From Alcaligenaceae bacterium (lineage in GTDB: Bacteria; Pseudomonadota; Gammaproteobacteria; Burkholderiales; Burkholderiaceae_B): a stretch of DNA of 57,522 nt. The position numbers and the translations under genes are program-made. Positions within the stretch are counted from its first letter, which is position 1; the number at the start of each line of letters is the position of its first letter. This document shows positions 3,038-54,835 of the stretch, in pieces. Where the stretch lies: positions 1-57,522 of the forward strand of contig CANCMG010000013.1 of the NCBI GenBank assembly GCA_947378965.1. The letters are read 5' to 3'. The notes beneath the pieces were generated by a model, which saw nothing but the letters and a program-made list of their open reading frames with translations, was not told the origin of the DNA and searched no databases.

Positions 3038-5881
3038 ATGGCCGCGTTTGCTTTTACTCTGGGTGTATTTCTGTATGTCAGCGTGGTTGGCCTGGCGGTC
3101 GCAGAGTGCTTACAGTCTGGTCGCTCAGGTCTCCAACGCCTTCTCCTGAGCCCCGCCTTAGGGCTCAGTACGTTATTACTGCCGGTCTTCACACTAAACC
3201 GGGCAGGTTTCCCTGTTGCACAAATTGGCCCCTTTGTCGTTTTTGGCTTAGGCCTGCTAGCGTTGTTCGTGTTGTTCTGGCGTCGTCCCAAACTGCCGTG
3301 GGGTGCAATGCTTTGGCCAACGGGTATCTTGCTGTTTGCCGCAGCGGCTGTGGCTTGGCCAATGATGCACTTTGGCTTCGATTGGGGAAGCTTCTCTAAC
3401 GATGATATGGCTAACTACTGCTTAGCCGCCCAACGTTTTCTAGAGCACGGGTACTACGAATTACCAGACTTGACGGCCTACTTCACGGGTAAGAATTATT
3501 CGTTAGCGTTTTGGTACATGCACGTCGCCGGTGGCGCCAGATCTGGTGCTGAATTGATGCTCGCCTCGCTTTGGGCCGTCAGTGGCCTAAACGCACATCA
3601 AATTTTTATGCCAACGGTCGTGGCACTCCACCTTGCGCTGATTGCTGCAACCGCTGCGGCAGTCGCTGGGGTAACAACTGGCGCCAAACGCCATCGTGCT
3701 GTCAATATCACCTTGCTTTTAATGGCGGTATCGCCGCTTACCGCCCTAGGTACGCTTTACCAACTGATCGCTCAAGTAGGTGGTTTAGCGCTCATGATGG
3801 TTGCATTGATTCTTTTGTGCCAACCTCTGCGTCGCTCTTTGCAAAGCAATTTACGGTCCGGCGGCTCAATTTCGCTTCTCATGAGCGCGTTATTTATTTG
3901 GTATCCAGAGACACTGCCGTTTCTTGGCGCTGCCTGGCTGATCTGGTTTGCGGTCTTGACCAGGCAGTGCACGCCCGCACGGCGTCTAGCGTTTCTGCGT
4001 CGCAGACTGATTTTTGCAGGGTGTGTCTTACTTGCATTAACTGTGATTCTGAATAGCTATTTGCTTTCGGTTTATGTTTTTATGGAGGGGCAAGCTAGGC
4101 AGGGCTTGAACTTGGTGGATACGGTTGGTGTTGTATTCCCTTACTACCTAATCCCTAGTGGTTTTGGAAATTTTTGGGGGTTACTGCCTATTTCGTCCCT
4201 TGTCAATGAGCCCTTTTTATCAGCGGCTATCGTTTTAGGTGTCTTGCTGTCTGGCTATTTTCTTGTCTGTGCCTATCGTCAGGCTCGACGGGGCTTGCCT
4301 GTTGCCGCGATGGCTTTTGTCATGCTGGCGGTGGGTGCTGTGCTCTTTTATCGAAGCAACGACTTTGGCCTTTTTAAACTGGCCATGTATTTGCAGCCGA
4401 CCGTTGCGGCAATTCTTGGTTGTGCTTGCGTGTACGGTGCGCGCCGCCGTCTGTCCTTGGCAATTGTCTTGGTGCTTTGTATGCTGCAACTTCCTAGCCA
4501 GTTTGCCTATGCTAGGCGTAGTCTGGGCAACGGTGCGGGCGGGTTAACTGAGATCCCTTACGTGTCGCAGAATGCGTTGCCCCGACAATTCGATGCCTTC
4601 ATGCAAAGTCTTGCCGGAAGTCATCCCGACGGCTATTACGCTGACTCGTCTAATGTCGTGATTGCCAAACTTCAATCGCTTTACAGTCAGGGCAATAGTT
4701 TGATTTTTCCGTCTAAAGACTTTTACTGGGGCAGCGACCGGCTCGGGGATATCGCCAAACGTAATGGTTATGGTGATTTCTGGAGCCTGAGTCGAGCCAG
4801 GCACGAGACTGTGTTGGTGAGTCGAGAGCTTCATTTAAGCCCAACGCTGATGAATCGGTTTGGGGTAAACGCACAAGAAAATGCTCTGCCAGGCAAAAGG
4901 GTGTTGATTGCCAACTCACCGCAACACACCATCTTTAATCGTTTTTTCGCTCGTGGTGATGAACCATTATTCCGTGTCGAAGACACGCCTAAAAATCACT
5001 TGATTTTCATCAGCTCTGCCCTTGGTCCGCACTACTATCAACCAGCGGTTGCTCGAAAAAAAGTCGCTTTTTATCAGCTTGAACATGATCCGATGTTTCC
5101 TGGGCGGCAAATTGCGGGTGTTGGTCAACATATGCTGCTGCTCGCTGCAGGGGTAACGCCTCGACCGCGCTTGTTGTTTGAAATTTCGACCACCGTTCTT
5201 GGGCAAAATGAACACCGGCTCCCAGTGCCTGTCGTGAATGGTCAAAGCAATCAAGTTGCGCCCTTTGTGGGACGGGGCAGCGGCAGGCTCCTGACACCGC
5301 CGCTCGAGCCAATCATCATCGACGGTTTGCCTTATTTTCATATTGACTTTGGGCGCGAAGGTAAACTCTTCATGCGTAACCGAGGCGGCACACTAATGTC
5401 ACTCTATGGTGCCCGGGTAGACATCGACCCTCGCTATCTGACAGCCTTCGCGCGAAATATCTCGCTGCTTTCCGAGGCTGAGGCCAACGCGCTGTTTGCT
5501 CCAAACGCAATTTCTAAATTTCCTGACGATCTTAAGAGTGATAGCCTGCAGTATTCTGGCCTGTACGAGGATGGTTGGGTGTCTGAACGAGCGTTCGTCA
5601 TGCTGACCGCAGCAAGCGAATCGAATACTCTGGTAATCAAAGGGATGGTTCCGTTAATTGCGGATCCCGCTTTTCATTCGGTCTTGACCGTTCTGCTTGA
5701 TGGTGACCAAGTGGCTCAGCAGCGACTGACGTTAGGCAGTTATGAAATCAAGGTGCCAATAGGTTCGGCCGCAGGGCAAAGAAAAGTCGAGCTAGTCTTT
5801 GACGGGTACCAAGTCTTACCCGGTGGTGATGGACGCCCTACGGGTGGCATGATCAATTACCTTGGTTTCAAAAAGGAATGA
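3038..5881 (+). CDS. Large multi-pass membrane protein, GT-C-like, with big periplasmic domain
   Basis: About 947 residues. The first ~490 contain some 12-13 hydrophobic segments. After the fourth segment, a loop carries an acidic pair in SNDDMANY, where GT-C glycosyltransferases place their catalytic acidic residue, followed by aromatic-rich sequence ending in KNYSLAFWY. Residues ~500-947 look soluble and beta-rich, presumably periplasmic. It could be a polyprenyl-phosphate-sugar-dependent glycosyltransferase, partnered with the dolichol-phosphate-mannose-synthase-like GT2 directly downstream, or a chain-modifying enzyme. Start at 3038 (MAAFAFTLG) is chosen because it begins at the first membrane segment; an ATG at 2999 would overlap the lipoprotein gene. 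I do not recognise a named family. Its 3' end forms the first unit of the 34-bp tandem repeat. Confidence 0.6.
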   Translation: MAAFAFTLGVFLYVSVVGLAVAECLQSGRSGLQRLLLSPALGLSTLLLPVFTLNRAGFPVAQIGPFVVFGLGLLALFVLFWRRPKLPWGAMLWPTGILLFAAAAVAWPMMHFGFDWGSFSNDDMANYCLAAQRFLEHGYYELPDLTAYFTGKNYSLAFWYMHVAGGARSGAELMLASLWAVSGLNAHQIFMPTVVALHLALIAATAAAVAGVTTGAKRHRAVNITLLLMAVSPLTALGTLYQLIAQVGGLALMMVALILLCQPLRRSLQSNLRSGGSISLLMSALFIWYPETLPFLGAAWLIWFAVLTRQCTPARRLAFLRRRLIFAGCVLLALTVILNSYLLSVYVFMEGQARQGLNLVDTVGVVFPYYLIPSGFGNFWGLLPISSLVNEPFLSAAIVLGVLLSGYFLVCAYRQARRGLPVAAMAFVMLAVGAVLFYRSNDFGLFKLAMYLQPTVAAILGCACVYGARRRLSLAIVLVLCMLQLPSQFAYARRSLGNGAGGLTEIPYVSQNALPRQFDAFMQSLAGSHPDGYYADSSNVVIAKLQSLYSQGNSLIFPSKDFYWGSDRLGDIAKRNGYGDFWSLSRARHETVLVSRELHLSPTLMNRFGVNAQENALPGKRVLIANSPQHTIFNRFFARGDEPLFRVEDTPKNHLIFISSALGPHYYQPAVARKKVAFYQLEHDPMFPGRQIAGVGQHMLLLAAGVTPRPRLLFEISTTVLGQNEHRLPVPVVNGQSNQVAPFVGRGSGRLLTPPLEPIIIDGLPYFHIDFGREGKLFMRNRGGTLMSLYGARVDIDPRYLTAFARNISLLSEAEANALFAPNAISKFPDDLKSDSLQYSGLYEDGWVSERAFVMLTAASESNTLVIKGMVPLIADPAFHSVLTVLLDGDQVAQQRLTLGSYEIKVPIGSAAGQRKVELVFDGYQVLPGGDGRPTGGMINYLGFKKE

Positions 5882-5990
5882 TTCTGATGCCTCCCTCTGC
5901 CTCAAAAAGGAATGATTCTGATGCCTTCCCCAGCTTCACAAAAGAATAATCCTGACGCCCCCTCAGCTTCACAAAGGAATCACAGTCATG
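5868..5990 (+). repeat. 34-bp tandem repeat at gene junction (3.6 copies)
   Basis: Units at 5868-5901, 5902-5935, 5936-5968 (33 bp) and a partial 5969-5990. The first unit is the real end of the membrane-protein gene (K-K-E-stop) and the last is the real ribosome-binding site and ATG of the next gene. Each intact unit repeats AAAAAGGAATGATTCTGATG, so the junction's Shine-Dalgarno and start-like elements are duplicated. The stop of the upstream gene overlaps an ATG (5878) that opens a 23-codon ORF, and the copy in unit 2 opens a 29-codon ORF whose stop lies just inside the next gene. Confidence 0.9.
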
Positions 5991-54656: not shown

Positions 54657-54723
54657 GCATCTGCTCTCAAATCTTAAGCGCTAGGTCTGTTAGCGTTCAA
54701 CCCTTCTCGGTCATGAGGCGCCC

Positions 54724-54835
54724 ATCACGAGCGCTTCTAGACCGAGACAGTTGGTTCACAGCAGGTAGCCTCCCAAATTCAGCAAGAGTGCTTCAACACC
54801 GAGACGGTCAGTTCAAACCGTAACGCCCTAAATTC
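54724..54835 (-). repeat. About 56-bp degenerate repeat of the katG 3' end (2 copies)
   Basis: 54781-54835 (containing the katG end N-L-G-R-Y-G-L-N-stop) and 54724-54780 align with shared blocks CGAGACGGTCAGTTCA / CGAGACAGTTGGTTCA and CCTAAATTC / CCCAAATTC. A third, more decayed copy may extend left to about 54669. It is older-looking than the other junction repeats but of the same gene-end type. Confidence 0.6.

Follow-up and report, generated by a model that had tools for sequence, protein, structure and literature searches.

The window analysed here, a 57,522-nucleotide contig (CANCMG010000013.1) of a freshwater bacterium of the family Alcaligenaceae, carries short tandem repeat arrays between its genes. 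These arrays belong to an already known kind, unique intergenic minisatellites, for which the comparative evidence is unusually clear in this genome. It is likely that they arose when short local stretches were duplicated in tandem, more often in this lineage than in its relatives, and were then filtered by selection. A sequence-only reading of the window had listed repeats at eight gene ends (5868, 6941, 12262, 12949, 13783, 27443, 35299 and 54724), each with its own unit, and had taken them for the product of a genome-wide process that amplifies whatever lies at a stop codon. All eight repeats exist, and their occurrence across the genome holds as far as the 28% examined shows; the role given to the stop codon is not supported.

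The source genome is a 4.50-Mb draft in 189 contigs (96.5% complete), the window being one of them. A search with TctA matched a record of Zwartia hollandica (NZ_JAHXRI010000006.1), a genus that NCBI assigns to Alcaligenaceae, Burkholderiales. We sampled its largest contigs in 60 stretches, which together with the window gave 1,248,490 bases (28% of the genome), and called 1173 genes (89% coding) with a custom hexamer model rather than a curated annotation. Tandem Repeats Finder (TRF) returned 178 rows that merged into 140 arrays, 99 of them with units of 18-70 bp and 72 with a score of at least 80, a cut-off that disfavours short units. The final set comprised 57 arrays touching non-coding DNA and 15 coding arrays. 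In a second, more sensitive test the self-similarity of each gap between genes was compared with dinucleotide shuffles. Tests on orthologous junctions started from 69 non-coding arrays with a score of at least 60; the counterpart could be compared in sequence for 20 of them in the sister genome G018, two of which sit in one gap, and for 11 in G009, another member of the genus.

Arrays were far denser in this genome than in its relatives. The sample held 72 arrays in 1.248 Mb (5.8 per 100 kb), 8 in the window and 64 in the remaining 1.191 Mb (5.4 per 100 kb). Under the identical TRF filter, coding and non-coding DNA together, G018 yielded 9 arrays in 420 kb and G009 one in 105 kb. The other genus-mates had one in 553 kb, a total in which about 10 kb (L101/L261) were counted twice, and loci from other genera had 3 in 948 kb. 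The density in this lineage exceeds that of relatives and other genera some 18- to 32-fold. Some of the G018 and G009 stretches had been picked for their alignment to array-bearing regions. The gap test pointed the same way: gaps whose tandem self-similarity exceeded that of shuffles made up 100 of 645 in this genome, 11 of 226 in G018 and 5 of 261 in the other relatives together (G009 0/36, Z. hollandica 0/23, further relatives 3/158 and 2/44). The difference was significant against the four groups other than G018 combined (Fisher p=8e-11) and against G018 (p=1e-5); G018 alone was not clearly higher than the other relatives in this test (p=0.08). Within the sample, strong regional clustering was dropped as a description, as over-dispersion per 10 kb was only slight (variance/mean 1.25, p=0.034).

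The arrays consist of head-to-tail copies, and the non-coding units measure 21-70 bp (n=57), inside the 10-200 nt expected of such repeats. As the sequence-only reading had stated, the units share no sequence: the 57 non-coding units gave no cross-hits among each other (E<0.01) and no copies elsewhere in the 1.25 Mb (E<0.001). On this ground a shared repeat family was rejected, whether a mobile element, mycobacterial interspersed repetitive units (MIRU), repetitive extragenic palindromic (REP) sequences or another interspersed family. Copy numbers are low (median 2.8, lowest 1.9); only 8 of the 57 arrays reach at least four copies, and most are therefore minisatellites in a looser sense, or tandem duplications. 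A variable number tandem repeat (VNTR) is one whose copy number varies between strains of a species; no second genome as close as a strain was found, and the difference in copy number seen here is one between sister genomes.

Comparison of orthologous junctions indicated how the arrays arose. There was no clear counterpart in G018 at 18 of the 20 compared arrays, nor in G009 at any of 11. A clear array of like period was retained in G018 at only two, C8:32716 and the tctA-tctC junction, with C13:35303 doubtful; at C2:62398 G018 shows a weak self-match with a different period. The gap was longer in the array-bearing genome in 30 of 31 pairs, the exception being a 1247-base gap in G009, a pair omitted from the tests of length difference, microhomology and unit source. 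In 13 of 21 arrays the length difference deviated from a whole number of units by no more than 0.15 (expected 6.3, p=0.002), and the extra length relative to G018 included values of 1.00, 2.00, 3.00, 2.03 and 1.02 units (e.g. 1x49, 2x38 and 3x40). In 19 of 30 pairs, representing 15 of 21 arrays, the relative's junction resembled the unit above 95% of mononucleotide shuffles; of these 15, two remain arrays in G018 and for three the p value is 0.045, among them C1:35605, where the match does not stand out against other units. The tctA-tctC junction displays the gradation most directly, with about five copies here, about three in G018 (L092/L230) and one in L152, a locus of G009. L152 is the closest DNA found at this junction (91-92% identical where its genome matches), and the extra length here relative to it is 4.00 units (4x36), a value that stands outside the integer test. 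No repeat was seen by eye in 17 further loci compared there. Given single-copy relatives, longer gaps, integer-unit differences and a unit-like source, the arrays are for the most part tandem duplications of local sequence that this lineage acquired; the local origin applies to most of the tested arrays and the gain of whole units to many.

The distribution of the arrays relative to genes shows a selective filter. Array density in non-coding DNA was about 32 times that in coding DNA. Of the 15 coding arrays, 14 have a unit length that is a multiple of three, compared with 13 of the 57 non-coding ones (p=8e-7). Non-coding arrays overlapped starts less often than placement within gaps predicts (8 of 57 vs 19.6 +- 3.3). 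The simplest reading is duplication anywhere, together with selection against damage to reading frames and start regions.

In the sequence of events that we favour, a stretch of 20-60 bp would be duplicated in tandem, most likely by replication slippage or misalignment, and further copies would then be gained, giving two to seven in a row. Such duplications would arise anywhere in the genome at the rate raised in this lineage, and selection would purge those that disrupt reading frames, promoters or start regions. What survives would be found between genes, chiefly on the 3' side, and hardly ever within genes unless the unit is a multiple of three. When a duplication spans a stop, the gene itself is unharmed, its first copy coding and the others non-coding, which is the pattern that the sequence-only reading described; it needs no special mechanism, because any duplication across a stop leaves the first copy coding. 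We infer that the molecular step is slippage, that a higher rate and not relaxed selection drove the process, and that the arrays have no function.

Several results weigh against this account. Length differences were not near a whole unit number in 8 of 21 arrays, and 6 of 21 had no recognisable source in the relatives' junction. Unit lengths are bunched, with 34 of 57 non-coding units at 34-45 bp (14 shorter, 9 longer), which plain slippage does not predict. Microhomology, the usual mark of slippage, gave a weak signal: at unit spacing in the relatives' alleles it ranked in the top tenth of offsets in 7 of 21 arrays (mean rank 0.52), and two or three of these seven still hold an array. A striking 9-bp repeat with copies 36 bp apart at tctA-tctC in L152 did not generalise, and microhomology was set aside as a general seed. 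Divergent gaps, which have no gene end, carried repeats in 16 of 144 cases against 84 of 501 co-directional or convergent gaps, a difference that was not significant (p=0.12), and a shortage of arrays in divergent gaps was not upheld over all gaps. The difference did appear among gaps of 80-260 bp (6/85 vs 56/308, p=0.011), a range chosen after seeing the bins, and the comparison is not fully clean because the repeats themselves lengthen gaps. This genome has both MutS and RecJ; no defect in repair was thus detected, and loss of either was rejected as the cause. The lack of a RecJ match in G018 (83% complete) and 5 other drafts says little. Weaker selection in this lineage may account for the arrays instead of a higher rate. 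A more specific version of the raised-rate reading, to which we give only a small chance, is that the lineage carries an altered replication or repair function making duplications of about 34-45 bp genome-wide, by which intergenic DNA would grow by self-copying and of which G018 would represent an earlier or weaker stage.

The arrays could instead be functional regulatory elements kept by selection, acting in spacing, translation coupling or phase-variable expression. Some units do contain a Shine-Dalgarno-like stretch with an ATG (5868, 27457), the 36-bp unit at 27457 holds the tctC frame open, and copy number differs among related genomes. The junctions without a clear counterpart in G018 and G009 speak against such a function, as do units that are unrelated in sequence and unequal in length and the avoidance of starts, and we consider regulation an improbable explanation of the arrays.

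A dedicated process that amplifies sequence at stop codons, for example one coupled to termination of translation or transcription, would be closest to the claim of the sequence-only reading. The enrichment that it led one to expect was indeed found: of the 72 arrays, 45 have a stop no more than 50 bp away, where random placement gives 12.9 +- 3.2, and for the non-coding arrays the count is 41 of 57 against 26.2 +- 4.0 under random placement centred in gaps. Of the 69 repeats in co-directional gaps of the sensitive set, 31 extend over the stop and 14 over the start (p=0.016); 44 lie nearer the stop, 24 nearer the start and 1 is equally far from both. However, overlap with the stop itself was not above what placement in gaps predicts (20 of 57 vs 17.4 +- 3.5), and the shift toward stops can be explained because starts are avoided. 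Also, 8 of the 57 non-coding arrays lie in divergent gaps, where no gene ends, and 15 of the 72 lie within genes. The units were no more prone to hairpins than other gap DNA (median z -0.52 vs -0.36 in 57 units and 57 control pieces; z below -2 in 12% and 11%), and on this ground duplications of intrinsic terminators were rejected. With overlap at the level expected for gaps, stop-codon targeting was rejected as the main cause, and a dedicated process of this kind appears very unlikely. What stands of the earlier proposal is a recurring process that amplifies local DNA on both strands and throughout the sampled sequence, with no shared family.

Fill-in and end joining of staggered breaks makes short tandem duplications, and a route of the Ku/LigD type in place of slippage would yield unique units without microhomology, fitting the weak microhomology signal. 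No match to Ku (PF02735) was found in any of 32 genomes of the genus including this one, which are drafts of varied completeness; among 14 control genomes only Bacillus subtilis matched, and the search covers the Ku-dependent route alone. We rate end joining at about as poor a prospect as a stop-codon process, or slightly poorer. An assembly artefact, conceivable for a draft in so many contigs, is next to impossible, as point changes separate the copies in most arrays, two arrays recur at orthologous junctions of the separately assembled G018 (tctA-tctC and the ortholog of C8:32716), and coding units divisible by three would not be expected.

Within the window, TRF recovered seven of the eight listed repeats, with starts no more than 14 bp from where they had been placed, and the eighth was supported by self-comparison against shuffles. 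The plus-strand array 5867..5980 (34-bp unit, 3.4 copies) runs from the end of the open reading frame (ORF) 2999-5881, whose stop lies inside the first copy, toward a glycosyltransferase start at 5988, and its consensus unit contains an AAGGA stretch and an ATG. The plus-strand array 6938..7058 (40 bp, 3.0 copies) covers the end of this glycosyltransferase (ORF 5988-6983); its coding first copy is diverged (0.80 to the second), and copies 2 and 3 are identical. The array 12262..12376 (40 bp, 2.9 copies, plus strand) lies entirely within the gap between a SIS-domain ORF (11633-12241) and a HAD-type hydrolase ORF (12392-12952). Most of the next gap, from the hydrolase stop (12950-12952) to a transaldolase start at 13090, is taken up by the plus-strand array 12949..13070 (47 bp, 2.6 copies). 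In the final codons of the transaldolase (ORF 13090-13806) begins the plus-strand array 13786..13963 (25 bp, 7.2 copies, or 50 bp, 3 copies). Further along, the array 27457..27630 (36 bp, 4.8 copies, plus strand) spans the tctA stop (27465-27467) and the tctC start, and its last copy doubles as the true start of tctC. On the minus strand, the array 35303..35399 (41 bp, 2.4 copies) spans the stop of an ABC-transporter ORF (35377-36090). A diverged two-copy duplication with a 57-bp offset (54723..54815, minus strand) lies in a convergent gap at the stop of a minus-strand peroxidase ORF (54808-57006); it is below the TRF threshold, with a self-comparison score of 20 against a best of 10 in 19 shuffles. 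The array 20211..20312 (20/40 bp, no strand assigned) was absent from the earlier list and is not at a gene end, being located in the divergent gap between a minus-strand glycosyltransferase (19323-19988 or 20111) and a GST gene (20492-21370). Among the genes beside the arrays are glycosyltransferases, an epimerase, a SIS-domain protein, a HAD-type hydrolase, a transaldolase, TctA/TctC, an ABC transporter and a peroxidase. A weak self-match with a 21-bp offset was also seen in the divergent gap 41450-41681 (score 15 vs 9 in shuffles).

That the first copy is the coding end of the upstream gene including its stop, as had been proposed for most of these repeats, is clear at 5868, 13783, 27443 and, on the minus strand, 35299. 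At 6941 the first copy is coding and the stop follows a few bases inside the second copy. The array at 12949 sets in one base ahead of the stop, and the pair of copies at 54724 is placed around the stop on the minus strand. The description fails at 12262, where the array starts 20 bases after the stop. In an ungapped comparison, copies were more alike away from the coding end in some arrays (C3:79911, C13:6938) and not in others (C13:27457).

Six of the window's nine arrays lie in a polysaccharide-type gene cluster (3000-20400). Of the region 3000-21400 only the last ~950 bases match G009 and G018 well, besides hits of 34 and 47 bases, and a plasmid search with the transaldolase as query gave nothing useful. 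The cluster looks like a strain-specific island, and its arrays are not datable because 3000-20400 has no counterpart in the two genomes beyond short hits. At the tctA-tctC junction, the 36-bp unit leaves the tctC frame open through the array (27470-27700), which would allow a reading of tctC with four additional 12-residue repeats at the N-terminus, before a signal-like start. The G018 array at this junction has a TRF period of 35. The G009 contig that holds L152 (C584) is 91-92% identical to the window, other G009 contigs mostly 72-89%, a contrast that suggests a mixed bin or recombination. Elsewhere, G018 carries a 40-bp array (L313 16637-16717, contig C380) at the same junction where our genome has a weaker repeat with a 26-bp offset (C2 near 60827), possibly independent duplications in one gap.

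The MIRU/VNTR loci of Mycobacterium tuberculosis are tandem units of 40-100 bp between genes that overlap stops and starts within operons. MIRUs share a related unit, whereas the arrays described here have no shared unit at all. The view that no described system behaves in this way is too strong, since genomes with many unique, unrelated tandem arrays have been published (PMC6749651). Subirana and Messeguer (2019) describe there prokaryotic 'satellites' that are unique in sequence, e.g. in Methanobrevibacter ruminantium and Clostridioides difficile, and the likeness lies in many long-unit tandem arrays, every one with its own sequence. According to that paper, the M. ruminantium arrays are scattered over the genome and at least half were judged non-coding, species differ strongly, and long units are mostly multiples of three, read as coding. 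It demands at least four repeats, which 8 of our 57 non-coding arrays reach, and it places most C. difficile arrays in two regions, unlike the arrays here; relative to the satellites as presented there, single-copy relatives and whole-unit gain are visible in our case. Intergenic tandem repeats in lake Planctomycetota, a different phylum, are the subject of PMC9426551, where slippage is suggested. The TAACTGA heptamer repeats of Beggiatoaceae, Cyanobacteria and some Bacteroidetes, as portrayed in PMC4679880, are likewise intergenic direct repeats, some of which overlap the stops of upstream genes, and close relatives of some hosts have shorter, repeat-free gaps. They share one 7-nt unit and in Maribeggiatoa lie generally near starts (PMC4679880), whereas the units here are unique, measure 20-70 bp and avoid starts. 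Repeats in this lineage were not named in the titles or abstract openings among the literature matches listed.

The arrays provide a clear bacterial case of intergenic growth by tandem duplication: gaps became longer, in many instances by whole units, and sister genomes still show the single-copy state. They also make a selective filter visible, in the avoided starts and in the coding units divisible by three. As most of the sampled genus-mates are nearly without arrays, the genus is a natural comparison in which to look for the change in replication or repair that would raise the rate of short tandem duplication.

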